Origin: a virus
Virus record (IMG/VR): IMGVR_UViG_3300035698_004595
Coordinates: 1-32,933 of that record
Strand: one strand, 5' to 3'
DNA length: 32,933 bases
The notes beneath the pieces are model-generated. The model did no database searches and was not told the DNA's origin. It worked only from the letters and a program-made list of their open reading frames with translations. Shown one piece after another: positions 4,895 through 32,383 of this stretch (its first letter is position 1; each line of letters begins with the position of its first letter). Position numbers and translations under genes: made by a program.

Positions 4895-6355
4895 TTATGG
4901 AAGATTCGCAACCGTACCATAGGTGAACAGGCCATCGTTGATGACCTTGAAGCCCTGTGCGCTGAAAAATCCCTTCTGCGCTTCTAATGTTGAAAGCAGA
5001 AGCGTAGGTGTGGTGAATAGCGGGATATATGGTGCGTAAATAAATCCAGCGAACAAGTAGCTATCACCCTTGAAACCAAGAGTGTAAGCATTGGTCGGAA
5101 GGAACGGATCCTGAACAACCAAGCGGCCATCCAAGGTACCAATTTCCATCGGACCAGTCGGGACCATTTTGCCCAGGTTCGCAATAGGCTTGAAGTGAGG
5201 ATCTAACTGCTTAATCACTCGTGCCGCATTGTTTCCTGCCAAAATGAATGTCGCCTGTCCACGCAATGTTTTCGCGAAGATGGCGTTGGATCCCTTCTCA
5301 ATATAGTCTAGGAACTGGTACCGTTTAAATACCCATTCCTGACCCGTACCAAGAGTTGCAGACCACGCGCCAATAGGATCCGCTGCATCTGCCCCTATCG
5401 AAGCGTTATAAATCATATCAATCCCGAAATGGTCAATTTCGAACTTAATCTCTCCACCAAGAAATTTTACTAACTCGGATTCGAGGTTAAGGCCGTGAGC
5501 CTTTTGGAGATCAATAGCTGCTCCTGCCTGGTACTTTGCCCTTAACTTGAAATCCTCGGCCTCAATCGTCGAAGAATTCAAATCAACATTCACCTCGGGC
5601 ACTCCGGAAGCATCCTTCTCCATGTTATACCGATAATCCATGGTAGGAGCTGCGGCTACTGCATTGGTGAATATAACCGAATAGACGCCGGTGGCATAAA
5701 CTATCGTGCCATCAACACCTGCTGAATCATCGGTTACTAGGTTTCCACTACCGTCATCGGTGAATGTCTCCACCCCGTCGGTAATGGTCATAGACGACGC
5801 AATAACGGGCTTATACGTGACTGTGCCAGCATAAGTTGTCCCGCCAGTGAGAGTCGCGGCCTCATCATACACACGATTAGTCGCATACTTACGCGACGCC
5901 TCGGATGACGCATGACCTGTTTTGGCTCCAATCAAAGTTGAATCCGCTGTAAGAGAGCCCTTTGTCTGACCGTACTTCACGTCCAGATAAAATACTGCAC
6001 CTGTACGACGATCAAGCGCTTGAACAACACCGATCTTGTTCATTACCAATGAAGGCAAAAGAGCTGCGATCACAGGCAACTGCACACCCAAGAAATCAAT
6101 GTTATCCGAGTAGGTAGTCTCAAAGACGTTACCACGTCTACGAATAGCAACCTCCATCAACGCATTGTCGAGGCACTGAGCCATATTGCGCTTCTCGATC
6201 ATGGAGAGCTTACGACCTTCTTTTTTCTGGAAGTAAGCATCGGCGGAGTTGATGTAGCGACCCCAAGTCTCAACGAGCTTATCGCGCTCGGCGATAATCG
6301 CCTGATACCTGGACTCAACTAACTGACCTAACTTTTCTGTGTTAGTAGGAGGCAT
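4895..6355 (-). CDS. Major capsid protein, T4 gp23-like
   Basis: A 486-aa protein with GGAG seven bases before ATG 6355. The HK97-fold/gp23 family is suggested by the order: an N-terminal helical region to about residue 75, then FLGVQLPVIAALLPSLVMN and IGVVQALDRRTGAVFYLDVKYG, then EDFKLRAKYQAGAAIDLQKAHGLNLESEL...GGEIKFEID, and a C-terminal region with PIANLGKMVPTGPMEIGTLDG and a late YAPYIPLFTTPTLL. This matches the gp23 order of strongly conserved blocks. A Thr/Gly/Asp-rich stretch at about residues 165-245 looks like an inserted surface beta domain, as in many T4-like capsid proteins. LxE motifs at LVE (12-14), LVE (27-29) and LME (66-68) are possible maturation sites; T4 gp23 loses 65 residues. 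It is followed by a terminator. Confidence 0.9.
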   Translation of the reverse strand: MPPTNTEKLGQLVESRYQAIIAERDKLVETWGRYINSADAYFQKKEGRKLSMIEKRNMAQCLDNALMEVAIRRRGNVFETTYSDNIDFLGVQLPVIAALLPSLVMNKIGVVQALDRRTGAVFYLDVKYGQTKGSLTADSTLIGAKTGHASSEASRKYATNRVYDEAATLTGGTTYAGTVTYKPVIASSMTITDGVETFTDDGSGNLVTDDSAGVDGTIVYATGVYSVIFTNAVAAAPTMDYRYNMEKDASGVPEVNVDLNSSTIEAEDFKLRAKYQAGAAIDLQKAHGLNLESELVKFLGGEIKFEIDHFGIDMIYNASIGADAADPIGAWSATLGTGQEWVFKRYQFLDYIEKGSNAIFAKTLRGQATFILAGNNAARVIKQLDPHFKPIANLGKMVPTGPMEIGTLDGRLVVQDPFLPTNAYTLGFKGDSYLFAGFIYAPYIPLFTTPTLLLSTLEAQKGFFSAQGFKVINDGLFTYGTVANLP

Positions 6356-6408: not shown

Positions 6409-9111
6409 CTATTGCTTGCCATGCATTCCTTCAAGCACGGCTGTGATCGAACGCCTAACGGGATCATTGGGAACCTTGTCCTTGATCTCATTAGCGTTCT
6501 CCATGGTATTGGGATCCTCATCGAGGTGGCTAGAGTGTAGCTCATTATCCCTTACCGCGTCGCGGAATTCAACCAGTTTTTTGTCTACTTCCTCACGACT
6601 TTCTACTTGCTCCAGAAGTGCCAGAGCCTTCTTTCCTAATTCAAGACCGCTGGATTCTATCTGCAGCTCCCGATATATTTTGACATCGAGGGCTTTGATT
6701 TCATCAGCGTGTTTAGTCTTTAGTCCTTCTATCTGTTGCTTAGCGGACTCACTAAGCTTAGTGAGTTCGTCTATTTTTTTCTTAGTATCTTCACTACCTT
6801 CGGTAGCCTTCTTAAGTCCAGCCTCGAGCTCGGTTGCCTTGCCCTGAGCCTTCTCGGCTATAACCACCGCCTGATCACGTTCTGCACGCCGTATAGCTTC
6901 ACGGACGCGGAGATTAGTCACCATACGCCGGACCGAGTCCGGTTGGTTATCCACAGACGGCTGAATGGACTCCGAGAGTACGGACGACAGCTTCTTCTTT
7001 ACCTCTTCGGACTCATCGCCGAACTCGTTCTCGAAATACTTGACCAGTTCATCGAAGGTCTCGAACGTGTACTTCTTCGATTCGTTGGTCTTGGGTAGCA
7101 TAGAAGCACTGCACTTCGGGCATTTCTGCTCAGTGCATGGTATACCTCTATCATGCTTGGCTATGGTCTTACATTCGGGACAAACACACTCGTCTACCCC
7201 ACCATCGCCCTGCCTTTGGCCTCCTTGACCCATGCCCTCACCTCGAGCCTCTTCCACTTTTTTGGATTCGGTAATAAGTTCCTCGAGCTCGGACATAACC
7301 TTCTTAATGGCCCCATCCTTACCCTCGCTCTCCATAAGTACCTTATCCTTATAAATACGGTCGAACTCAGCACCGGCCTCATCGAGGATAATAGGAGACA
7401 CAAACTTAGGCAACCCGGTAACAAAGAACCTGCGAGACTCGTTCTCTATCTTTTGTTCTCCCTCAATGTCCGTAGGCTGTAGATACTCGGTACGCGGAAC
7501 GAACTTCATATCCGGGAATTCCTTCTTGGTCTCAGGGCTTGCTGCCTTATTCAGGAAATCACAATAATCCTGTTCGGCCTTAAGTCCCTCAACGTCTCCG
7601 GGAGGCGTATCGCCGACGGTCTTAATTTCCTTATCGGCTACGGCGGGTTCCTCACTAACCTTCTTCTCGGCCAACCGCTTGATGTCCTCAGGCATTTTTC
7701 CGCCGCCATCCTCTATCTGCTTCTTAGTTGTATCATAGACACCGGCCGATACACCGTGCTCAGACTCATTCCATTCGCGCATCTTGGCTATGAGACCATC
7801 CACAGTAAGGTTCTCGTTCTCGGTATCTATAAGCCCAGATTCCTCGGCACGCTTACGGGCCTCATCGTTCTTGAATAGCTTAGAGTCATACTTCTCAGCT
7901 ACAATAGCCTCAAGCGCGATATCCGTTTTCTGCTTGTCCTTGCCCGAAAACTGCACCTTATCGAACGCGACCTCGGTACCCTCAAGGGTATCCTTACCCT
8001 TGTACTTCTCGCCTACACCGGGCTTTACGTACGCCACGGTCATATGCGGAATGTACTCGGGCTGAGTGTCGGTGTGTTCCATGCTATCAGATATCTTCTT
8101 ATTCAGACGCTTAAGGTCCTCAGATTCTATGGTTACATAGACCACGTCGTAGGGTGCGCCCTCTTTAGAGGCGAATATGTCGGTCTTACCTAGCTTCGCG
8201 GTAAGTACCTTCTCGCCCTTAAGAACGGGTTCTAAGTCCTTAGACTCGTCCGTATGAAGCCCAAACTTCAACGTCACATGAGGCTCTTCCTCACGTCCAA
8301 ATGAGGGATCCTTAGGATCTACGTAGATCTCATCATCGGATATTGACTTGGAGAATTCGAGTACCTTGTCGGCCGTTTCCTTCGGGGCCTCAAGCTGCAC
8401 ACACGAAAACTCGCGCTTCTGTTCGCCCAAGTCCTTCTTTATGTTCTCAAGCAGGGACTGAGCCGCCGGAGATTTCACCGACTCGAGCATCTGTACAGCA
8501 AAATCCTTATCTATCTTGGCTTGATCTAGGCCTACCTCGATATGACCCACCACCTCACGAAGCACGGACTCAGGAGCCGAATTGAACGTTGAAGCGTCGG
8601 CCGTAAAGTCTGTGGTTATGTAGCGATAGGATTCGGGAACGACATAACGGTACTTGCCAAATTCCTTGTCTTCCTTTTCTTGGAGCTCACCCTCGGCACG
8701 GGTAGAACACCCGACCAAGCAACCTGCCTTGAGCATGGTGTCTATGATACGGCCGAACGGAGTATCGAGAACATCGAATTCCTGAAGCACGCGCTGGCTG
8801 GACTCGTCTATGTGCATCTTAGACACCACATGCGAGGCCTTCTCCAACGAGGACTGCAATTTGTCCGGGTGTTCCGCATGGCCTACTAGCCCGCGGGACT
8901 CTATCTTGGACATAATATCCTTATCCCCCATAACCCTATCCCATACGCCCTTTTCATACATACGGCCGTTATGGTTGAGTTTACCTATGTTACAAATAGG
9001 ATACACCACGCGGCACAGAACCCCTTCGGGGAGCTTCTTTGCATCACGTTCTAATATCGTACCCTTTTCCTGAATGCGCTCATCTAACTGGATCAAAGTT
9101 TTCTTAGACAT
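6409..9111 (-). CDS. Prohead protease fused to 2H phosphoesterase-like domain, zinc ribbon and scaffold-like coiled coil
   Basis: A 900-aa protein with GAGGAGG before ATG 9111. Residues 1-190 look like a T4 gp21-type prohead serine protease: NHNGRMYEKGVW (46-57), GLVGHAEHP with candidate catalytic His78, and GCSTRAEGE with candidate nucleophile Ser136, then TTDFTAD. Residues about 235-400 carry two H-x-T motifs, PHVTLKFG (His278) and PHMTVAYV (His356), the signature of 2H phosphoesterases, which act on cyclic phosphate or 2'-5' RNA bonds. Residues 644-667 have CPEC...CPKC, a zinc ribbon. Residues about 735-860 are a charged coiled coil like a scaffold protein. The C-terminus ends VLEGMHGKQ. 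It sits directly before the capsid gene, where protease and scaffold are usually separate genes. The 2H insertion is the odd part. Confidence 0.8.
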   Translation of the reverse strand: MSKKTLIQLDERIQEKGTILERDAKKLPEGVLCRVVYPICNIGKLNHNGRMYEKGVWDRVMGDKDIMSKIESRGLVGHAEHPDKLQSSLEKASHVVSKMHIDESSQRVLQEFDVLDTPFGRIIDTMLKAGCLVGCSTRAEGELQEKEDKEFGKYRYVVPESYRYITTDFTADASTFNSAPESVLREVVGHIEVGLDQAKIDKDFAVQMLESVKSPAAQSLLENIKKDLGEQKREFSCVQLEAPKETADKVLEFSKSISDDEIYVDPKDPSFGREEEPHVTLKFGLHTDESKDLEPVLKGEKVLTAKLGKTDIFASKEGAPYDVVYVTIESEDLKRLNKKISDSMEHTDTQPEYIPHMTVAYVKPGVGEKYKGKDTLEGTEVAFDKVQFSGKDKQKTDIALEAIVAEKYDSKLFKNDEARKRAEESGLIDTENENLTVDGLIAKMREWNESEHGVSAGVYDTTKKQIEDGGGKMPEDIKRLAEKKVSEEPAVADKEIKTVGDTPPGDVEGLKAEQDYCDFLNKAASPETKKEFPDMKFVPRTEYLQPTDIEGEQKIENESRRFFVTGLPKFVSPIILDEAGAEFDRIYKDKVLMESEGKDGAIKKVMSELEELITESKKVEEARGEGMGQGGQRQGDGGVDECVCPECKTIAKHDRGIPCTEQKCPKCSASMLPKTNESKKYTFETFDELVKYFENEFGDESEEVKKKLSSVLSESIQPSVDNQPDSVRRMVTNLRVREAIRRAERDQAVVIAEKAQGKATELEAGLKKATEGSEDTKKKIDELTKLSESAKQQIEGLKTKHADEIKALDVKIYRELQIESSGLELGKKALALLEQVESREEVDKKLVEFRDAVRDNELHSSHLDEDPNTMENANEIKDKVPNDPVRRSITAVLEGMHGKQ

Positions 9112-12513: not shown

Positions 12514-13044
12514 TTATTCTCCTGTTTTCTTCTGCTCGCTATTATGTATAACGCGAGGGTTCTCATCCAAGTGATAATATGTCTTACCGCCGTCCGTAGA
12601 AAATAACGCCGGATTACGCTTGCACTGCCACATGTCTTCTTTGAATCCTTTGTCTGTCCCATAATATTCACACACATTCATCCAGTCATCGGGACTACTA
12701 GTAATAGGCGTTAAGTTCTCAAATTTCAGGAGCTTAGGCATAATCTGCAGGACTATGCTGGCGCTACCGCCCGAATGCCCCTGCTTACAGAATGCCTCAA
12801 CCATATCCATTACAGCCTTACCCATCATACCACCATAATCAGCGTCCGAATCAAATAGTCCGGCCAACTTAAGCTCACGAAGGGCGTGCTGATAGAGGTT
12901 ATCCTTTTCCTTGTCCCAGTTATCCCCCGATTCATTGAGGTCCCCCTTATACTTCTTGAATTCCTCAATAAGGAGCCTACATTTAGACTCGTCAATGTCG
13001 GATTCCATATTCCTCTCTATAAGATCGCCTACATCACTCATCAT
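12514..13044 (-). CDS. Hypothetical protein with GDLIERN N-terminus, 176 aa
   Basis: The start overlaps the portal stop (ATGATGA), so it is translationally coupled to portal. The N-terminus carries VGDLIERNMESD, shared with the downstream protein. The middle is helical (KAVMDMVEAFCKQGHSGGSASIVLQIMPKLLKFENLTPIT) and the C-terminal part, with PDDWMNVCEYYG...MWQCKRNPALFSTDGGKTYYH, resembles a domain I have seen in many phage hypothetical proteins, without known function. A head-associated role is inferred from the location beside portal. Confidence 0.8.
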   Translation of the reverse strand: MMSDVGDLIERNMESDIDESKCRLLIEEFKKYKGDLNESGDNWDKEKDNLYQHALRELKLAGLFDSDADYGGMMGKAVMDMVEAFCKQGHSGGSASIVLQIMPKLLKFENLTPITSSPDDWMNVCEYYGTDKGFKEDMWQCKRNPALFSTDGGKTYYHLDENPRVIHNSEQKKTGE

Positions 13045-14933
13045 CTAGCTCTTTTCCTTAGAATATCCATCACATCATCAAGTGGGTCATTACCCTCAGC
13101 CCTACTGTTATTGCCCCACCCAGTTCCTGGGGCTACCTTATGATCCATAACGCTGACTTGGGACTTCTTGCGCTTGGTACTACCCTCCTCAGCCTTCTTA
13201 AGGCCATAAAGTCCACGCCACTCATTAAGGTTGCGGGGCCACTTGCCATTTACATTCTTACTGTTTATAGGCAAATGAGCCAAAAGGTCGGTATTATGTA
13301 TTCGTTCCCTGATTGACTTCTTCCGGGCTTTGGACTGCTTAGATCTCTCATTAAGCAGGTCCATGTATTCCTTCTTATCGAATATGTGCTTGCCGGTACG
13401 GGCGAAACGCTTCTCGTCCATATCGGCGAGCATAGAGTATAAGTCCAAGTCCCCTAACTTGAGTATCTTCTGATTCAAATAATCCAATAGTTCTAATTTA
13501 TCTACCTTATCCCCTGTATGCTTGGCTATAAGATCGGATAGTTTGTCTACCACGTCCACGCCCTTATCTAGGGCGTCCTTAAGTTCCTCTTCCTCGGCGG
13601 AAGATGTCTCGGACATATTAACCTCAAATAGCGCCGGGTCGGGGTCCATGCCCATATAAGCCAAGTGGATCTGACACATTCTCTTTATCCCATCCAATAT
13701 CGAACGCTGCAACCTACGGGAGGCGCGGGCGAACCTTATGTCGATACGCTCTAAGGCAGAAGTACCCAAAGAAGAGGGCAGATCCTTCGTAAAGCCACCA
13801 AGAAGCTGAAGAGGCACGCGTAAAGCCACGGCCAATTGGTTCCTCATATCCTCCACATCCTTAATCCAACGTATATCGGGCTCACCACCGAGCTTTTCCA
13901 CCGATAGATCCCCGGCATCTCCCCATACGGGAAGCACTATATCCTCATTGACCGCCATAGGATTGTATTTGGAATCAAAATTCTCGCTACCCGAGGTGGT
14001 ATCCAAAGCACGGGCCTGTTTCAGGGTAGCCGTATACTCGTCCATAATCTCAGCAACGGCTTCAAGGTTGGTTCCGTCCACCTTTACCTTATAGAGATAT
14101 CTCAAAAGCCCTTTGGAAAGCCTGGCCAATAGTACCGAATCCTCGGCCAACCTAAGACGTTTGTATACCGGAATAGCATTAAGAAGTAAGGAAGTACCAT
14201 ATTTAGAGCTTGCCTGGCGGGTATCTGCACACATAAGACTTACTGTGCGGTATTCTGAGTATTGTGGGTCGTGGTATGACGGACGTTTCCTTTTAGCCCC
14301 TAAGAGGCGCATATGAACATATTCCCACGGAGGCAATAAGTCGGTGGCTGTAGGAGCCCCTACATAACCAACAGGGGTATTGAAGAAGCCCACTAGACGC
14401 CCATTATGATCCACGCGGGATACGTTAAGAGGGTGATCATCATCGTCTACAGATATTATACCTGTCCCCGGCTTAGCATGCATCTTAACGAATAAGTCCC
14501 CATAAGCCCCTACCGTCCAGGACCAGTCGAATATCTTTTCTTCTATTCCTATATGATCGAGAAGCTTAGTCAGTTCTGTGGTATATTTAGCCGAGTCCGA
14601 GGTTATCCATACCGTAGCCCCCTGCAACTGGGAATAGTTTGTGGCTACTTCTGAATATAACTCTAAGGCGGATCCAACGAGGAAGTACGTCAAGGCACGG
14701 TCTACTTCGAAGTATATCTTGTGCCTATCGAAATTAACGAGAGTCTGTCCCGCCATATAGTCGTATAGGTTTCGGGACGTAAGGCCTATACGTTTAAGTA
14801 GGACTCTATCTGTATCGGTAAGTGTACTAATGGGTTGCTTGAATATGCCGGCTGGTATGACTTCTGGCTTTCCTAATATACGGAAAAGCAAATCCGGGAA
14901 CGAAGATAGTGGCTGCTGCTTACTTTTATCCAT
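13041..14933 (-). CDS. Portal protein, T4 gp20-like
   Basis: A 630-aa protein with GAGGAG before ATG 14933. The portal family is indicated by an N-terminal region with RNLYDYMAGQTLVNFDRHKIYFEVDRAL, the clip/wing-like middle (YGDLFVKMHA, LPPWEYVHMRLLG), the long helix region RLAEDSVLLARLSKGLLRYLYKVKVDG, and IKDVEDMRNQLAVALRVPLQLLGG, which corresponds to the conserved gp20 segment where a helix is followed by a VP-x-x-LGG turn. Twelve copies would form the DNA entry ring and dock the terminase. The C-terminal tail after about residue 560 is basic and likely flexible. It is preceded by a structured leader and followed, with a 4-nt overlap, by a 176-aa gene. Confidence 0.85.
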   Translation of the reverse strand: MDKSKQQPLSSFPDLLFRILGKPEVIPAGIFKQPISTLTDTDRVLLKRIGLTSRNLYDYMAGQTLVNFDRHKIYFEVDRALTYFLVGSALELYSEVATNYSQLQGATVWITSDSAKYTTELTKLLDHIGIEEKIFDWSWTVGAYGDLFVKMHAKPGTGIISVDDDDHPLNVSRVDHNGRLVGFFNTPVGYVGAPTATDLLPPWEYVHMRLLGAKRKRPSYHDPQYSEYRTVSLMCADTRQASSKYGTSLLLNAIPVYKRLRLAEDSVLLARLSKGLLRYLYKVKVDGTNLEAVAEIMDEYTATLKQARALDTTSGSENFDSKYNPMAVNEDIVLPVWGDAGDLSVEKLGGEPDIRWIKDVEDMRNQLAVALRVPLQLLGGFTKDLPSSLGTSALERIDIRFARASRRLQRSILDGIKRMCQIHLAYMGMDPDPALFEVNMSETSSAEEEELKDALDKGVDVVDKLSDLIAKHTGDKVDKLELLDYLNQKILKLGDLDLYSMLADMDEKRFARTGKHIFDKKEYMDLLNERSKQSKARKKSIRERIHNTDLLAHLPINSKNVNGKWPRNLNEWRGLYGLKKAEEGSTKRKKSQVSVMDHKVAPGTGWGNNSRAEGNDPLDDVMDILRKRAR

Positions 14934-21598: not shown

Positions 21599-22345
21599 TT
21601 ATATTTTACCATTTTTCCGTGTTATGCCCATCCAAATATCCCTTACGGGATTAAAATTCTTTAGCCTTCGTCTAAACTCGCGCATAGCATCGGACAAAAA
21701 TTCATTTTTCTGAATTAACATATACAAAGCACGGTCCCCGCTCCTAATACGACTTGCTAAGTCCTGCACTTTCCCACCAATATAAGTCTCACAAGGAAAG
21801 TCGTACGATATATCACTCAGTATAAGTAATACTCTATGCATCATAGCCTGCTGAAAAGCCATAGTGACATCGTGTTCCTCACAGTCGCCAAGCTCTATTA
21901 CCGCTGAATCGGTAACCTCCTTCACAATCTCACGGTATGGATATACGCACTGATCCCAAAACGGATGCCTAATCAATGCAACACGCCTATCTGATTTATC
22001 CAGTGTAGCTGAAGGCCTAAATAACACATGCATAGACAACAACGTAAAATTGGAATGCCTAACTCTTGACACCCAACCCTTTAAGGATGTCTGCTCTATC
22101 ACCACTTTATCCTTGAGAAACTTCCTATATTTACTTATCCACCCCAAAGTCATTTGCATAGGAACACACAGAAATATAACGTCAGACCTCTTAATTCTCC
22201 TTATTTTTTCTTTCTCAGTCTCGTTAACATCAAAGCACCAAACATTAAGAGCTTTAGGCATAACACGTAACAGCCCTTGAAGAATGAAGGACCCTATTTC
22301 ACCCCTATAACCCACAACCAGAGGATTTTTAATACTTACAATCAT
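21599..22345 (-). CDS. TyrA-like (prephenate dehydrogenase family) protein, 248 aa
   Basis: The N-terminal Rossmann motif VGYRGEIGSFI (11-21) is followed by SDVIFLCVPM (54-63), a TSLK motif (86-89), and SMHVLFRP with His106, where TyrA proteins have a conserved HP-x-x-GP with catalytic His. The second domain has EEHDVTMAFQQAMMHRVL, matching the EHD...Q-x-x-H helix of prephenate dehydrogenases, then LASRIRSGDRALYMLIQKN, like the TyrA C-terminal helices. The family oxidises prephenate with NAD(P) in tyrosine synthesis. The usual GxGxxG is GYRGEIG here and HPxxGP is HVLFRP, so the substrate may differ. Start overlaps the DNA methyltransferase stop as ATGA. A TyrA relative in a phage is unusual. 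Confidence 0.7.
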   Translation of the reverse strand: MIVSIKNPLVVGYRGEIGSFILQGLLRVMPKALNVWCFDVNETEKEKIRRIKRSDVIFLCVPMQMTLGWISKYRKFLKDKVVIEQTSLKGWVSRVRHSNFTLLSMHVLFRPSATLDKSDRRVALIRHPFWDQCVYPYREIVKEVTDSAVIELGDCEEHDVTMAFQQAMMHRVLLILSDISYDFPCETYIGGKVQDLASRIRSGDRALYMLIQKNEFLSDAMREFRRRLKNFNPVRDIWMGITRKNGKI

Positions 22346-23748
22346 AGCATTACACTCCCTATTCGCTTATTAGCCATGTCTATATAATCTGAGTTAAGTT
22401 CAGTACCAACGTAGTGCCTACCCAGCTTCTTGGCCACCACAGCTACAGTACCTGAACCCATAAAGGGGTCAAACACCACACCACCATCAAACCCAGTACC
22501 ACACCCACAGTCGGTATATCCGATTTCTATAGTTTTTCCATCAATTCTACCACTTCCCGATTTTCCTACCGTTCCTGTAGGTTTTCCTGACCCCCCCCTT
22601 GCTTCATGCGAAGATTGTGTTTTGGGGCACTCTTTAGATGAGCCAGGAATAACTTTATATTTCCTCTTCCTCGACTTCTTACATTTGGTGCACACAAACT
22701 CGGGACACCCAGCCTTTATCATAGGCTCAATTAGAGTTTCGGGGAATGTAGCAAAGTGGGCCTCGGCAAACGCTTTGGTATTTATAGACCACACACAGCG
22801 CTTGTGGCGACCCTGTTTATCATAGGAAACCTTACCTATAGCGTACTGCCCAGTTAGGATCTTGCCCGATTTAGGGGCCACCTGTTTAATACTCCTTTTA
22901 TCACGGCCCGCCCAAAGGTGAGGCTCATACTGCTGCTCAAACCAATATTTCTTCGACTTCACAAAAAAGAACACGTACTCAAAGTCCGACGTAAACCTAT
23001 CCTTCACAGACTGAGGCATAGCGTTGGGCTTATACCATATCAAAGTATTGCGTAGTATCCAACCTCGATTGCACATCTCTATCGAAAATCGAAACGGGAT
23101 TTGGCAGAGGCATTTATGGGGAAGTTCATTACCCCAATTTGGTTGCGGCATATCAAGAGTTCCAGTATTACTTCTCTGTTTTTCACTCCATTCAGCAATT
23201 CCTTGTCCCCTCCCCCTACCACCACCATAATAGGTATCTCCTAAATTCACCCAGCACGTACCCGTACGCTTAAGTATACGCTTGATCTCATCAAAGATGT
23301 CACATAGATGTTTAACATAGAGGTCAAACGTAGGCTCAAGGCCTAATGAGCCTCGCCAAGCGCTACACTTAGAACAAAAATTTCCAGCCGTTGGCCGTTT
23401 TCGATCTGTTGGTATTTGCCCATCGGCACCGATCTTCGATTTATTTTGAAACCCGGTTGTTAAATCTTTATTTCCACTAACTTGCCCCGCAAACTTCAAG
23501 TCCATACCCCACTCATGCGCGCAATTAGGGTCTCCATCCCAAATATGATCGTCGGTCTTGTAGTCCCTCAAAGCCCAGTACGGAGGGGATGTAATTACAC
23601 AGTCTATAGACTCTGATGGGAAGGACTTTAATATATCAATGACGTTACCGCAGTAGATATGATCAAGCTCAAGATCCAAGCTATTGGGCTTGCTCTCTAC
23701 CTTAGCTACTTCAACATCATCAACAATTTCCCAACCGCCATTTGTCAT
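22342..23748 (-). CDS. DNA methyltransferase, beta-class N6-adenine/N4-cytosine
   Basis: A 468-aa protein with motif IV TSPPYW (53-58) before motif I FDPFMGSGTVAVVAKKLGRH near the C-terminus, the order of beta-class amino-methyltransferases. Between them lie WRGSLGLEPTFDLYVKHL and WVNLGDTYYGGG, blocks typical of phage and bacterial DNA methylases of this family. Cys pairs (CSKC; CTKCKK) suggest zinc-binding inserts. It would methylate an adenine N6 or cytosine N4 in a sequence-specific site; the site cannot be read. No restriction endonuclease lies beside it, so it probably protects or marks phage DNA. The next gene overlaps as ATGA. Confidence 0.85.
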   Translation of the reverse strand: MTNGGWEIVDDVEVAKVESKPNSLDLELDHIYCGNVIDILKSFPSESIDCVITSPPYWALRDYKTDDHIWDGDPNCAHEWGMDLKFAGQVSGNKDLTTGFQNKSKIGADGQIPTDRKRPTAGNFCSKCSAWRGSLGLEPTFDLYVKHLCDIFDEIKRILKRTGTCWVNLGDTYYGGGRGRGQGIAEWSEKQRSNTGTLDMPQPNWGNELPHKCLCQIPFRFSIEMCNRGWILRNTLIWYKPNAMPQSVKDRFTSDFEYVFFFVKSKKYWFEQQYEPHLWAGRDKRSIKQVAPKSGKILTGQYAIGKVSYDKQGRHKRCVWSINTKAFAEAHFATFPETLIEPMIKAGCPEFVCTKCKKSRKRKYKVIPGSSKECPKTQSSHEARGGSGKPTGTVGKSGSGRIDGKTIEIGYTDCGCGTGFDGGVVFDPFMGSGTVAVVAKKLGRHYVGTELNSDYIDMANKRIGSVML

Positions 23749-24417: not shown

Positions 24418-24483
24418 TTACCCCCAAAGTGCAATAGCAACAGCCACAACGACTATAATAATAGCCAAGACGATTATCTTCAT
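24418..24483 (-). CDS. Single-pass membrane micropeptide, 21 aa
   Basis: A frame from ATG 24483, overlapping the upstream stop as ATGA, to TAA 24418. After MK the chain is almost wholly Ile/Val/Ala/Leu, ending in LWG, so it is a single hydrophobic helix of membrane-spanning length. The coupling supports translation; its size makes the call tentative. Confidence 0.5.
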   Translation of the reverse strand: MKIIVLAIIIVVVAVAIALWG

Positions 24484-25286
24484 TTGTTCTTTTCTAAGAA
24501 GCCCTCGTTGGACTTGATTACCTGTTGGAGCAAACTTGCATCATAGCCATATGCATCGCTAAAGGCGACAAGGGCTTTAATATCTTTCGGGAAACACTTG
24601 CCACTGTAACCCCTTTTATCCTTAAAGACCATTGTATGACCACGAGCTACGCGCTCATCATTAAGCCACAAGTCACGAGCTTCATAGAAGTTTACGCCAA
24701 ACTTCTTACAGATCTCAAACATTTCATTGCAGAACGTTACTTTAGTCGCGTAAAAGGAATTAACCCAATACTTAACCAATTCGGCTGTCTTCGCGTCGGT
24801 TCTGAAATACTTCTTGTAGGGGCCACCTATTCTAGCAAAGAAATCGATTGCTTCTTCTACGTCAGCAAGGTCTCCACCTACTATTACGAACGGGGTATCG
24901 CTCATATTCTTTTCAAAGTCAATAGGACTCCAATAAGCAGATTCCCCGATGTACTCAGGGCTAAACACTATTCGTTTGTTATACTTAACTCTGAGTCTGT
25001 CGGTTGTTCCAGGTGGAATGGTTGATTTGATGATTATTAGGGGGTCGTTCTTGATTAGCTTAATAGATTCCTCTACAGCGAATATGACACAAGAACCATC
25101 ATATCTCGACGGAGTGGGAACACAGATAAACACTATACTTGGTTCTTTTGAATCTATACCATCTATTGTAGACTTACTAGGATCTTTATCGTATATTCCT
25201 ATCTTGAGGTTAATGGCTTTCGTTTTTGTCAGCATTTCGTCTACGCTCTTGCCTACGTGCCCGTAACCTACTATCACTACATTCAT
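24480..25286 (-). CDS. UDP-glucose/GDP-mannose dehydrogenase-like, C-terminal domain absent
   Basis: ATG 25286 (MNVVIVGYGHVGKS) is chosen: AAAGGAG precedes it and the NAD-binding motif GYGHVG (7-12) starts there, so the longer frame to 25337 is rejected. The protein has VFICVPTPS (52-60), STIPPGTT (88-95), FSPEYIGE (108-115), a central helical domain with KYWVNSFYATKVTFCNE (172-188), and GYSGKCFPKD (226-235) with catalytic Cys231. The family oxidises UDP-glucose to UDP-glucuronate (or GDP-mannose) in two steps. Typical members have about 400-450 aa; here 268 aa remain and the UDP-binding third domain is missing, ending soon after the Cys motif. It may pair with another protein or use a different substrate. 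Confidence 0.8.
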   Translation of the reverse strand: MNVVIVGYGHVGKSVDEMLTKTKAINLKIGIYDKDPSKSTIDGIDSKEPSIVFICVPTPSRYDGSCVIFAVEESIKLIKNDPLIIIKSTIPPGTTDRLRVKYNKRIVFSPEYIGESAYWSPIDFEKNMSDTPFVIVGGDLADVEEAIDFFARIGGPYKKYFRTDAKTAELVKYWVNSFYATKVTFCNEMFEICKKFGVNFYEARDLWLNDERVARGHTMVFKDKRGYSGKCFPKDIKALVAFSDAYGYDASLLQQVIKSNEGFLEKNK

Positions 25287-25395
25287 GCTCTTCTCCTTTT
25301 CTTTTGTTATAGGCTGTAAACGCATGAACGATATCATTCAAGTTGCTTACAGAACCCAGTTTCTTAAACTCGGGGCTGCCTCTAAATTTCCACAT
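25210..25395 (-). CDS. Possible small ORF overlapping UGD-like gene, 61 aa
   Basis: A frame starting at ATG 25395 inside the last codons of the 75-aa gene. It fills the 95-nt gap before the UGD-like start and runs 77 nt into that gene in another frame. The part in the gap (RGSPEFKKLGSVSNLNDIVHAF) looks protein-like; the tail is Arg/Glu-rich shadow-like sequence. No clear ribosome binding site. It may be real but is weakly supported. Confidence 0.35.
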   Translation of the reverse strand: MWKFRGSPEFKKLGSVSNLNDIVHAFTAYNKRKGEEHECSDSRLRARRQERRRNADKNESH

Positions 25396-27457: not shown

Positions 27458-28038
27458 TCTCTACTCCTAAGATATTCCCTAACGGACTCACGCATCTTGC
27501 ACTTTGCACGCTGAAACTTAGTCTTCATGTACTTCTTCGATCTCGCACCAAACATCATAAGGGCCATTTTATAATAATCATAATGATAAAGGTACATAAT
27601 CCGACCAATACCCAATGGAGCCCCATTAAGTATTCCAGAATCAAAGTCATGATACGGAGCAACAACCCTATCAGCAATGCCTTCAACTGGCATCTCATGC
27701 CTACGATGCTTATAATGCTGCCTCAATACATAATAAACATACGACTTTATCCTAGATCCAACATTCTTTATACTATCCACGTCTTTAACTCGGTCAAATG
27801 CGAGTATCATACCAAGGTATGCACAATGCAATGTATCCTTATAATCCGACATAGTAAGACAAGCCCACCAGTTATTTCTACGATTCCATTGCTGAATGAC
27901 CTTAAGCACCAATGGCTCATAACGCATCAGCATAACCGAAATGTAGACTGAATGACGCTCCTTACGATACCTTTTTATTATTTCAATATCAGAAACTTCA
28001 TTATACTGTGATAAGTCTGATATGGGATCATACATCAT
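27454..28038 (-). CDS. Sigma-factor region-2-like protein, 194 aa
   Basis: Overlaps the terminase stop as ATGA. The stretch SDIEIIKRYRKERHSVYISVMLMRYEPLVLKVIQQW, then MSDYKDTLHCAYLGMILAFDRVK and SRIKSYVYYVLRQHYKHRR, follows the pattern of sigma-70 region 2 (a D-L-x-Q-x-G-x-L-x-x-A-x-x-x-F core and an FxxYAxxxIRxxI helix that contacts core RNA polymerase and the -10 element). The C-terminal DYYKMALMMFGARSKKYMKTKFQRAKCKMRES could be a reduced region 4-like helix set. T4 uses gp55, a small sigma, for late genes, so a late-transcription role is the main hypothesis. Confidence 0.65.
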   Translation of the reverse strand: MMYDPISDLSQYNEVSDIEIIKRYRKERHSVYISVMLMRYEPLVLKVIQQWNRRNNWWACLTMSDYKDTLHCAYLGMILAFDRVKDVDSIKNVGSRIKSYVYYVLRQHYKHRRHEMPVEGIADRVVAPYHDFDSGILNGAPLGIGRIMYLYHYDYYKMALMMFGARSKKYMKTKFQRAKCKMRESVREYLRSRE

Positions 28039-30038
28039 GCTCTTCTACCTTTGGTTGATTTCTTTAATATCTTAGTAAATTTTGACATATCAGACGTCGG
28101 AATAGACCCAGCAGCAGCCACGACTTTGGCTGGTTTTCCGCCACTCTTAACACCGTCAACCCACCAGTAAGGATCTTCCTTTACGGACGTGGACTTCCTC
28201 ATGTTCTGCAACAACTCCTTCAAACGCCTGTTGTCTGGTAAGCCCTCAACTATAGACACCGCGCCCATAACCGATCCACATATCGCATCAGCAAGGTCCT
28301 TAGATCCTACAAGCACTATGTCACGTACCTCGCCGGACTTCATAACTTCAACGTCCGTAACCTTTTCTGGATGGTCAACCTTCTGCCTGTCCCGATCAAA
28401 TATAAGGTGCTTAAGCTCAAAGTGTACTATAGGATGCTTATGGAATACCCACCTCTTATCAAACAACATCTGCCTAAAATCCATATACGCCTTGACGTCC
28501 TTATCTACGGAAAACGACTCGGCCTTAAGGCCCGATCTATTTAGAGTCTGTAATAAATGAGCAGACGCTATTTTAAGGTCAGCAGTAAACCGGCGTATAT
28601 TAAACCCTAACGCCCTAAGATCGAGGACAAGGCGTATCACCTTATTAAGTGGAATTTCGTCATTCTCACGCGCACGTAGTCTGATCACAAAGTCGGTCTC
28701 AACTACCGGCATCCTTTCCTGTGTCCGCGCACCATCTTCAGACTCGGACTCCACAGACGACCACCCACACACACCGGACATAGCAAGCGCCAAGCAGTTC
28801 TCACCATGGGCGAACGCAATATCTAAGTGCATAGACCTTGGTGCGGAACGCTCCATACGTATACGGTCATAGTCTATAAAGTATGCAAGCTCAACATCCT
28901 TATCACGCAACCCAACGTCTATAGTAAGCTTCTTCATAGGCTCAAGCTTCGAGTCATCATAACAGTCGTATAACACCTGTTCAGACGGAATAAAATGCGA
29001 CTTCCTAATTCCCGTAACTGACACGCCAGCAATATCACGCAGCGCCCCGACTATGTCACGGTTAAATTCATCTTTGTACTCAACCGGAATTTCTATCACC
29101 TGGTACCCATCTATTCGAGCCTGCCTCACCTCCTCAGGTTGATACAGCACCTGGGGCTCATGGTACGCATCCCCAACAGAAACGGTAAACTTCTTACCAG
29201 AATAATTGCCCGATGATTTGGCCTCCCATAAAGGTATGTCAACAACGTACACACGATTAGACCCCCTCATTTCATCAATGTACGTATTTAGGAATGACAT
29301 TTCGTCTTGCTTGGAGGAAACTAAAAACATCTTGCCAATAGATCGCCCATTTCTAACGAATCGGGACTCAAACCTACGTTCTGTAGCCTCATATGCCTTA
29401 ATAACTTTAACTTTCTGCTTAGCGGACTCGGTCGGAGAATCAAGCTCGTCCATAATTGCTATTAGAACGTCCTCACCTATAACTCCCGAACCCTCAGCCC
29501 TGGGTGAGCTCAAGACGAATACAAATAGGGGAAATTCTATACGGCGCGAGTCCTCGGAATTACCCATCACACGGCCCTTACTCAAAAACCACGGAGAATT
29601 TAACAGGTAGGACTGCAGAAGTCCAAACCCCTTAGACTTACCAAGAGTCTTAGTAAGGTTAAAAAATGAAATAGCCATACGGCCCGCTTGGTTTAGATCG
29701 AAGTACCCCCAAGGATCGCGCAAGCACAACACCCGGTGCATAATATACAACACACCAATTATAGCAGCGCTAGTCTTACCGGTACCAATAGCCCCAGTAA
29801 GGATTACAGCCCACTTACTATCATCAGGCATGAACCGCCTCAACTCACGATTCCAACAATTCCGAATTGTATGTCCTTGTTCTGTTGATTTGCCAAGAAA
29901 ATCCGGGTGGGAGATAAACGTACCTATATCAACGGGCCTTTCCTTATAATTCATCTTATAAAGCTCGTTGATGTATCCTTTTACCTTATTAACTTTGCCC
30001 CGCGCACGTCGAGGATCTAAACTTTTATAATCATGCAC
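28035..30038 (-). CDS. Terminase large subunit
   Basis: A 667-aa packaging motor. Walker A is GAIGTGKT (82-89) and Walker B with catalytic acid is IAIMDE (193-198) in VLIAIMDELDSP. The SSK motif near 241-243 fits the coupling motif. The nuclease domain has HLDIAFAHGEN (Asp406), RRFTADLKIASAHLL (Asp487), and KVDHP...GSKDLADAI (Asp581/584), the usual RNase H-like acid set. It starts at GTG 30038 with a weak ribosome binding site. The stop overlaps the sigma-like gene. It would translocate DNA into the prohead through the portal and cut the concatemer. Confidence 0.9.
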   Translation of the reverse strand: MHDYKSLDPRRARGKVNKVKGYINELYKMNYKERPVDIGTFISHPDFLGKSTEQGHTIRNCWNRELRRFMPDDSKWAVILTGAIGTGKTSAAIIGVLYIMHRVLCLRDPWGYFDLNQAGRMAISFFNLTKTLGKSKGFGLLQSYLLNSPWFLSKGRVMGNSEDSRRIEFPLFVFVLSSPRAEGSGVIGEDVLIAIMDELDSPTESAKQKVKVIKAYEATERRFESRFVRNGRSIGKMFLVSSKQDEMSFLNTYIDEMRGSNRVYVVDIPLWEAKSSGNYSGKKFTVSVGDAYHEPQVLYQPEEVRQARIDGYQVIEIPVEYKDEFNRDIVGALRDIAGVSVTGIRKSHFIPSEQVLYDCYDDSKLEPMKKLTIDVGLRDKDVELAYFIDYDRIRMERSAPRSMHLDIAFAHGENCLALAMSGVCGWSSVESESEDGARTQERMPVVETDFVIRLRARENDEIPLNKVIRLVLDLRALGFNIRRFTADLKIASAHLLQTLNRSGLKAESFSVDKDVKAYMDFRQMLFDKRWVFHKHPIVHFELKHLIFDRDRQKVDHPEKVTDVEVMKSGEVRDIVLVGSKDLADAICGSVMGAVSIVEGLPDNRRLKELLQNMRKSTSVKEDPYWWVDGVKSGGKPAKVVAAAGSIPTSDMSKFTKILKKSTKGRRA

Positions 30039-30444: not shown

Positions 30445-31129
30445 CTTGCCCCCCCTTATCATCAACCTTGGGCTTACTTTCAGTCACAACGTCAACATCA
30501 ACTATAGAACGTGTAAGGTCTTCTATCATACGGTCTCTATCTGCCGGAGCCATCGTTCGCAACTTACTCATTACGTCACGGTCTTGCGCCGACAACGTCG
30601 TACCACCAAATACAAACGTCTCATTCTTAACTATTGGGGCCGGGACACGACGTGTATATCCCATCTTATCCGCAAATTCAATAAGCTTCTCATCTTCTGC
30701 ACGAAGCTGCTCAAGGATCTCAGACTTAAGCTTAAATATATCAACATGGTCAACAATCTCAATATCACAGTTCTTATTACACCGTGTACACACATACTGC
30801 GTATCTGGGTGTTCAGAGTCGGCTTCCTTATATAATGCATGACAGCACGTCGATAAATATACTTGCTCTCTTCCTTGAAGACTCCTAAGCATAGTCATAA
30901 AATGGTTAACCCTAGACTGATACCCCTCAAATATGTACGTCATCAACGTGTCGGATATCATATACGAAACGTCATGGCTACACTTGACTTTCACTTTGTG
31001 CTGTATCCGGCGGACATAACCAACATCAACATTAAGCAAACTGGCCACATACAGAACGTCGCCCCTGTGCCTCATAAGAGCGATACGCACGTGCTCCTCG
31101 GCTTTCCATTTTTCTATGTTATGAGCCAT
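30428..31129 (-). CDS. Candidate small terminase with HTH and Cys cluster, 233 aa
   Basis: Start overlaps the GroES-like stop as TAATG. Near the N-terminus MRHRGDVLYVASLLNVDVGYVRRI looks like a helix-turn-helix, as in small terminases. A central STCCHALYKEADSEHPDTQYVCTRCNKNC is a Cys/His cluster that may bind zinc. Residues 130 onward are helical and coiled-coil-like (FKLKSEILEQLRAEDEKLIEFADKMG), and the tail is acidic. Position two genes upstream of the large terminase and the HTH make a small terminase likely, though direct homology is not recognised. Confidence 0.5.
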   Translation of the reverse strand: MAHNIEKWKAEEHVRIALMRHRGDVLYVASLLNVDVGYVRRIQHKVKVKCSHDVSYMISDTLMTYIFEGYQSRVNHFMTMLRSLQGREQVYLSTCCHALYKEADSEHPDTQYVCTRCNKNCDIEIVDHVDIFKLKSEILEQLRAEDEKLIEFADKMGYTRRVPAPIVKNETFVFGGTTLSAQDRDVMSKLRTMAPADRDRMIEDLTRSIVDVDVVTESKPKVDDKGGQDGNKV

Positions 31130-31869
31130 TAGTCTATATCAACCTCCTGTTCACCCTCAACTATAAACAGTATGTCTTTACAAATTACTATCTTATACAC
31201 CCCGTCATCAATAAATATGTTCGTACCGTCATGCCTCATCATACACACCCTATCACCAACCGACAACGTAGAGTCAACCCCAGATCCGATCTTAACAATC
31301 TCAACCAAAATGCGAGACGGTACATTAAGTATCGGAATAACAATGCCGGACTTAGTCTTCGATTCGGCTTTGGGTATAACACGGACGAGCAGCCTATCAA
31401 ATATAGGACTGACACCGCCCATAGTCTTATCATTTACAACGGCCCGGATATCGCGTTCTCCCATCATACGGACCTTGTGCTTTTTCCCGTCTATACCCTC
31501 AAAGTCCATATGCCACGGAACGCTTGAGGTATAATTCACCCGGTCTCCAGACTTAACTGTAGTGGGGCGAAACTTGCCACGATCATCGGTATAACCCTTA
31601 CCTACAGCAAGCACGGTACCCACCGAGTTATACAACTCGCCGGATTCCCTATACAACTCACGAACTATATCAGGCACAATGATACCACCATCTGTCTTTT
31701 CGGGGATCTCATCGGGGTACATAAACACAATATCACGCAACGGACGCCACGGGAATTTAATAGCACCACACTCCTTACACCGAAACGGCACATTAAACTT
31801 AGCGCCTATCCCAGCTTTGGACCTAGAAGCCCCGCACACAAGGCATTTCTTTACAGGGTTATCCTTCAT
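31129..31869 (-). CDS. Tandem GroES (Cpn10)-like co-chaperonin with zinc ribbon
   Basis: I place the start at ATG 31869 (MKDNPVKKCLVCG), with GGAGGT just upstream and an 11-nt overlap with the resolvase gene; the frame extends to 31974 but has no ribosome binding site there. Residues 9-34 have CLVC...CKEC, a zinc ribbon. Domain 1 (about 42-145) shows PLRDIVFMYPDEIPEKTDGGIIVPD, a GroES strand and mobile loop, then GTVLAVGKG. Domain 2 (about 151-240) repeats the pattern with PIFDRLLVRVIPKAESKTKSGIVIPI and VEIVKIGSG. Normal GroES and T4 gp31 have one domain of about 100 aa. It likely caps host GroEL to fold the capsid protein, as gp31 does in T4. Confidence 0.8.
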   Translation of the reverse strand: MKDNPVKKCLVCGASRSKAGIGAKFNVPFRCKECGAIKFPWRPLRDIVFMYPDEIPEKTDGGIIVPDIVRELYRESGELYNSVGTVLAVGKGYTDDRGKFRPTTVKSGDRVNYTSSVPWHMDFEGIDGKKHKVRMMGERDIRAVVNDKTMGGVSPIFDRLLVRVIPKAESKTKSGIVIPILNVPSRILVEIVKIGSGVDSTLSVGDRVCMMRHDGTNIFIDDGVYKIVICKDILFIVEGEQEVDID

Positions 31870-32383
31870 ATCTACCTCCATGAGTAAACAAACGTCGACC
31901 GTATTCTGCGATAAGCAACGAGTCACACCTTCCGTCTCGAGGGTTTCCCTTTGGAGTCCGCAAGTCCACACCAAGCGGAAACATCCTATGCGCTATCTGA
32001 TAAGCGGCGTTCTTAGTTTGATCCTTCTTTCCAGTTATACGAAATGCAGACTGCCAACTTCTCACACTAACAAACTCATACGATACACCAAGTGCCTCAA
32101 ATATGCCTGAAAACAAACCTTCAGCATATCCAAGACTCCAGTTTCCTTGTGACGAAGAGAACCCCTTAATGGTCGGAATCGGGCCGGTCTTTTCTATATA
32201 TACCCTAGCCTTGCCAATAAAATCAGATAGTACATTCCTTACCTTAGCCGTATCGTACCTCGTCTTCTTTCCTACTTTTATCGTAGGCATATCAATTACA
32301 TACATAAAATCACCATGCACAGACAGTGCAGAGATAGCACCCTTAAGTCCTAAATCAATACCAACCACAAATCGAACGCTCAT
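31859..32383 (-). CDS. RuvC-like Holliday junction resolvase, 174 aa
   Basis: Begins MSVRFVVGIDLGLKGAIS, the RNase H-like first strand with catalytic Asp10. VYIEKTGPIP gives Glu64, and RDGRCDSLLIAEYG gives Asp150 and Asp154, the last acidic pair of RuvC (DGxxDA-like). It also carries KGFSSSQGNWSLGYAEG and a W-x-SAFRITGKKDQTK segment known from phage RuvC relatives. The enzyme would cut four-way junctions in recombining or replicating DNA so that it can be packaged. It overlaps the ATPase stop as ATGA. Confidence 0.85.
   Translation of the reverse strand: MSVRFVVGIDLGLKGAISALSVHGDFMYVIDMPTIKVGKKTRYDTAKVRNVLSDFIGKARVYIEKTGPIPTIKGFSSSQGNWSLGYAEGLFSGIFEALGVSYEFVSVRSWQSAFRITGKKDQTKNAAYQIAHRMFPLGVDLRTPKGNPRDGRCDSLLIAEYGRRLFTHGGRYEG

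Follow-up and report, generated by a model that had tools for sequence, protein, structure and literature searches.

A predicted 2H phosphodiesterase domain inside a putative prohead protease-scaffold protein, next to the capsid gene of a T4-like head gene cluster

Results

A 900-residue protein encoded in the head gene cluster

The window analysed here is the whole of the IMG/VR record IMGVR_UViG_3300035698_004595, a stretch of 32,933 bases that is probably a genome fragment. An earlier reading, made from the sequence alone, had described a single 900-residue frame at 6409-9111 and had left out its strand. We found this open reading frame on the minus strand, complete from ATG to stop, while the plus strand over the same interval contains many stops. 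The encoded protein, here called P0001, precedes the major capsid gene immediately, and the genes for the portal protein and the large terminase subunit are located farther upstream. The order of the head genes in the window is T4-like. The features discussed below are the following.

4895..6355, minus strand: major capsid protein, the next gene after P0001 (PHROG 138, 9e-39)
6409..9111, minus strand: P0001, protease-2H-zinc ribbon-scaffold fusion protein of 900 aa (open reading frame, family searches, whole-protein model)
6532..7056, minus strand: coiled-coil scaffold, residues 686-860, with a conserved ALLE near the C-terminus (modelled helices, blast to family members)
7102..7191, minus strand: zinc ribbon with C644, C647, C664 and C667, residues about 641-670 (Cys residues, model)
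7192..7896, minus strand: middle region, residues 406-640, short helices and disordered linkers with no recognised domain (whole-protein model, blast)
7906..8415, minus strand: 2H phosphodiesterase domain, residues 233-402 (PF13563, AF2 model, Foldseek against PDB)
8038..8046, minus strand: second catalytic motif, H356-M-T358 (65-sequence alignment)
8272..8280, minus strand: first catalytic motif, H278-V-T280 (65-sequence alignment)
8479..8484, minus strand: candidate self-cleavage point Glu210/Ser211 in [LIM]-x-E, between the two helices that end the protease domain (motif conservation, model)
8512..9087, minus strand: S77 or gp21-type prohead protease domain, residues 9-200, catalytic His81 and Ser136 (PHROG 207; 5jbl by profile and Foldseek)
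13041..14933, minus strand: portal protein (PHROG 1497, 1.1e-23)
28035..30038, minus strand: large terminase subunit (annotated terminase of Rhizobium phage RHph_TM21B matched by blastp at 4e-70)

A single Foldseek search with one model of the whole chain gave PDB matches to T4 gp21 (5jbl) as well as to 2H enzymes. The domain architecture of P0001 is far beyond what chance would give.

The protease domain and a candidate cleavage point

Residues 38-246 of P0001 matched PHROG 207, 'head maturation protease', at 5e-23, and T4 gp21 (5jbl) was matched at 7.9e-6 by profile and at 1.3e-5 by fold in Foldseek. The Pfam S77 match to the window protein (9.5e-5) was under the family cut-off, which most of the relatives passed. 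His81 and Ser136 were invariant in all 27 family members, the window included. The gp21-type protease with Ser136 that had been proposed from the sequence alone thus holds. The same reading took His78 as the catalytic histidine, which we reject in favour of His81, as position 78 is His in just 18 of the 27 and Gln, Glu or Asp in the others.

T4 gp21 cuts after L/I-X-E. The [LIM]-x-E motif was found at the column of E210 in 24 of the 27 family members and at that of E834 in 22. The model shows E210 as the last residue of a helix (202-210), just ahead of a loop, which is followed by a second helix (215-227), and the site falls between the protease and the 2H domains. Because L/I-x-E triplets are abundant in P0001 (22 were found), we treat the conserved site as suggestive, and we infer from it that P0001 may cut itself at E210. 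The major capsid protein contains a hydrophobic-x-E site resembling a maturation site (NVFE/TT), and 25 of the 26 capsid proteins aligned share it.

A complete 2H domain in the middle of the chain

The match of P0001 to PF13563 (3.7e-10) was over the curated cut-off. Both H-x-T motifs are located where they had been claimed, at residues 278 and 356, their His and Thr were invariant in the 65 aligned sequences, and the other invariant 2H residues were also kept in the window copy. An AlphaFold (AF2) model of residues 225-410, built from the 65 sequences, had a mean pLDDT of 94.2. Its best PDB matches in Foldseek were Usb1, Acb1, LigT-type enzymes, plant cyclic phosphodiesterase and poxvirus cGAMP phosphodiesterase. 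The sequence-only reading had staked the assignment on a 2H fold in the predicted structure and, as all of these best matches are 2H enzymes, such a fold was found with confidence. We concluded that the domain is complete with its catalytic residues intact, and on sequence and model it is predicted to be a phosphodiesterase.

When the 2H profile was compared with PDB sequences, Acb1 was the best match (9q2g at 5.6e-8, 7t26 at 8e-4), above the LigT-type enzymes; YjcG and a cyclic phosphodiesterase came next. Acb1 is a phage-encoded, separate enzyme that protects from CBASS (PMC9117128; PDB 7t26, 9q2g). It shares the 2H fold and the HxT/HxT tetrad with the window domain, besides being the profile's top PDB match by sequence. 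Unlike the window domain, which is part of a 900-aa chain, Acb1 stands alone and has about 150 aa. The Pfam Acb1 model gave the window protein 16.9 bits against a cut-off of 27, while one relative (L030) passed. As the window domain lies under this cut-off we do not call it an Acb1; an Acb1-like action is a reasonable lead. With Acb1 as the best PDB sequence match, the most likely use of the domain would be against cyclic-oligonucleotide or other nucleotide-based defence.

The domain might instead, packaged or not, be an RNA enzyme, either a Usb1-like RNase or a healer of 2',3'-cyclic ends on RNAs cut by host anticodon nucleases. In Foldseek, Usb1, LigT and plant cyclic phosphodiesterases were about level with Acb1, an RNase role is one of the two proposals made for phage 2H domains, the other being degradation of nucleotide signals (Iyer et al. 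2017, PMC5512222), and a 2021 survey of jumbo phages suggests RNA repair. Against this stand the sequence ranking, with Acb1 ahead of the LigT-type enzymes, the observation that polyvalent 2H versions were never seen beside RNA ligases (Iyer et al. 2017, PMC5512222), and the fact that no ligase was recognised among those window genes that were scanned. Weighing both sides we find the RNA enzyme rather doubtful.

Middle region, zinc ribbon and scaffold

Residues 406-640 were modelled at pLDDT 29-77 over most of their length, with disorder at 478-507, 540-571 and 623-639, and blast found no relative over the length of this region in the loci searched. A weak IMEF_Flp match at residues 569-621 was dismissed, being under the cut-off and in a poorly modelled part. 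The four-Cys zinc ribbon at 644-667 is present as described from the sequence and was modelled at pLDDT 83-92; residues 642 and 659 are also Cys. A related ribbon occurs in one relative (L019) and in a separate open reading frame of another (L021). The long coiled coil noted earlier was likewise recovered, as long helices at 686-721, 725-768, 774-833 and 839-860, with blast matches in family members.

A linker and zinc ribbon of the form 'GEGMG-GG-RQGDGG ... C-C-C-C' is common to window positions 7102-7230 and a separate 490-aa open reading frame (L021:16104-17576), with 53% identity over 34 aa, which amounts to module shuffling. An unnamed module, 'KG(I/V)HTK-FH--A--I-KGY ... LG--K-V-K-H', recurs in the variable middle of protease-scaffold proteins (L021:6910-9981, L022:2990-4855, L137:10001-13708). 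Another small repeated module, ending 'DP-DP--F-VVVEE', is part of a scaffold insert and was also found in separate open reading frames (L020:5368-10005, L026:15489-17663, L021:16104-17576).

Protease-scaffold relatives share a frame with a variable middle

The whole of P0001, used directly as a query of IMG/VR, gave no relative, and for this reason relatives were retrieved with the capsid protein and then with a protease profile. In this way a related protease-scaffold fusion of 533-1545 aa was found on 26 further IMG/VR contigs; it adjoins the capsid gene in those examined. The proteases were 43-56% identical to that of the window where this was measured. The C-terminal coiled coil gave a blast match in eight of the nine relatives L018-L026 and in L074. 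In Rhizobium phage RHph_TM21B, Bacillus phage SP-15 and Listeria phage LIS04, the prohead core scaffolding and protease proteins likewise have an N-terminal protease and are encoded directly upstream of the capsid gene. At 500-570 aa they are much shorter than P0001, tblastn reached their protease part only, and no 2H domain was detected in them.

The sequence-only reading had stressed that protease and scaffold are separate genes in T4. This is correct for T4 but does not make P0001 special, as fusion is the rule in this phage group. With the 26 relatives and the Rhizobium, Bacillus and Listeria phages all having it, the fusion was discarded as a novelty. The unusual feature is the 2H insertion alone, which was found in the protease-scaffold middle of the window and in none of the other 26 (1 of 27). 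Two close relatives encode a 2H domain elsewhere in the head cluster, some 4 kb beyond the capsid gene in both cases: as a separate 192-aa gene (L074) and inside a 724-aa open reading frame with DUF5661 (L026).

Its absence from the 26 relatives, together with its occurrence on a single contig, could suggest an assembly chimera of two phage contigs. Such an origin is scarcely credible, as the two junctions are in frame without stops, the GC content is even (0.505 in the 2H part, 0.49-0.505 in the rest of the P0001 frame), and homologous protease and scaffold flank the insert on both sides.

The middle of the relatives varies in length and content: KOW motifs were found in three (L117, L125, L126), DUF7249 in one (L020), and about half of the 27 proteins contain CxxC motifs. 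This could mean that the slot tolerates unrelated inserts and that the 2H domain is structural filler of the scaffold, its catalysis no longer relevant. As the window copy has lost none of the invariant 2H residues, those of the two HxT motifs included, such a role is very unlikely. A related reading takes the middle as a cargo slot, into which the phage group swaps effector or binding domains (2H, KOW, DUF7249, zinc ribbons and small shuffled modules), so that every prohead core would carry its own proteins, self-cleaved free and delivered to the next host. We consider this broader reading possible, although we lean against it.

A further relative is a 1235-aa protein (L137) on a 179-kb contig binned with a MAG of the Asgard archaeon Candidatus Borrarchaeum weybense; the 2H profile did not match this protein. 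The contig either comes from a virus of Asgard archaea or was binned wrongly.

2H domains are often linked to head and portal proteins

At least 577 stretches in IMG/VR encode relatives of the 2H domain, and none was found in the plasmids searched. Among the best 80 of these loci the domain stands alone in about 25, and in the rest it is part of open reading frames of 482 to 5096 aa. A solo 2H gene lies between the terminase and portal genes in 14 loci, two of which are near duplicates (L052, L053). In the multidomain frames scanned, 2H was fused to Phage_portal (L038, L048, L063), to Phage_portal_3 (L043) and marginally to Phage_portal_2 (L087), or was part of polyvalent proteins with LPD38 or ART-PolyVal. 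Some phages have a solo 2H gene among metabolic or unknown genes, outside head clusters, and the linkage is therefore frequent, not universal. In a tree the window domain was placed near a polyvalent-protein clade, in the same set as the domains of L026 and L074 (the latter as the identical copy L077). As the support was weak (80, no starred set), we make no claim on the origin of the window domain.

Occurrence of 2H domains in polyvalent proteins, and their fusion to MuF or portal proteins, has been described before, with the proposal that they are packaged and injected into the host (Iyer et al. 2017, PMC5512222). P0001 agrees with this in joining 2H to what would be a virion protein, and the nearest relatives of its 2H domain sit in such proteins. 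It combines disparate activities in one chain (peptidase, 2H fold and scaffold) within a head gene cluster, as polyvalent proteins do, while the typical polyvalent-associated domains (LPD, ART-PolyVal and others), present in near 2H relatives, were not found in it. The carriers described by Iyer et al. are portal, MuF or giant polyvalent proteins, whereas that of the window is a prohead-core protease-scaffold, normally dismantled during maturation. We found no report of a 2H domain in a prohead protease-scaffold in the open-access literature searched. P0001 is a new carrier, and adds the head scaffold as a third physical route to the known idea of 2H domains in virions.

Discussion

In the T4 core, gp21 and gp22 occur together with Alt and the IP proteins. 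By analogy with this core, the scaffold end would place P0001 inside the prohead, where the protease would cut itself and the scaffold at hydrophobic-x-Glu sites, E210 among them. The freed 2H domain could then stay in the head, as Alt and the IP proteins do in T4, and enter the host along with the DNA, where it would hydrolyse a nucleotide signal or the 2',3'-cyclic end of an RNA. Taken as a whole, the explanation that P0001 serves a T4-like phage as both protease and scaffold of the prohead core, and carries a 2H phosphodiesterase as internal cargo packaged and delivered against nucleotide-based defence, stands in our judgement at an even chance. Packaging of the domain into particles is likely, and injection and counter-defence are plausible.

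The cargo reading is favoured by the intact catalytic residues of both enzymes, by the conserved frame with a variable middle, and by the recurrent link of 2H to head and portal proteins. Against it counts that the insertion is known from one contig. Most fragments of the T4 scaffold do not stay in the head, and for the same reason the window phage could lose a domain that is built into its scaffold.

The likeness to T4 gp21 (PDB 5jbl) and gp22 comprises the protease fold, the His and Ser residues, the place before the capsid gene and the candidate Glu-directed sites. The T4 proteins are separate gene products, whereas in the window protease and scaffold share a single chain, which also holds a 2H insert and a zinc ribbon. 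The internal proteins IPI-III and Alt are core-associated and processed by gp21, and many are ejected into the host; IPI counters restriction, and Alt is an enzyme. They are encoded by separate genes and have short targeting peptides, in contrast to the 2H domain of the window, which is inserted in the protease-scaffold chain.

Alternatively, the domain could act in the cell that produces the phage, ahead of assembly or while it proceeds, for instance against late-triggered abortive signalling. Its link to the scaffold would then be a simple tether, and it would do nothing after injection. Acb1, a separate phage enzyme, protects from CBASS (PMC9117128), and the solo 2H genes outside head clusters would suit such a role. 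An enzyme acting in the producing cell needs no link to a head protein, yet 2H is repeatedly fused to portal proteins or located in the head gene cluster, and we regard this alternative as unlikely. The sequence-only reading had offered two functions, the processing of RNA or a cyclic nucleotide inside the assembling head and the countering of a host cyclic-nucleotide defence after injection. The second plausibly fits the context better, because 2H recurs in virion-associated phage proteins and Acb1 is the best PDB match of the profile.

If the cargo reading is right, a 2H domain in the head scaffold is a built-in means of loading virions with an early-acting effector, and differs from the known portal and MuF fusions and from short targeting peptides. 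Should the enzyme degrade defence signals, protection would be ready at entry, before any phage gene is expressed. The reading makes a testable prediction on which parts of phage scaffolds stay in the mature head.

Other genes in the window and related loci

PADLOC found nothing. Two further genes on the minus strand of the window, at 22342-23748 and 24480-25337, encode a DNA N6/N4 methylase and a UDP-glucose/GDP-mannose dehydrogenase-like protein, which suggests DNA modification and sugar metabolism. Among the portal genes, one 857-aa frame (L001:13131-15704) appears to be interrupted by an intein, with a segment ending in '...VMHNC'; related loci have portals of similar length. At 31129-31974 on the minus strand the window encodes a 281-aa protein in which an N-terminal Cys-rich segment is followed by two tandem Cpn10/GroES stretches, a double co-chaperonin.
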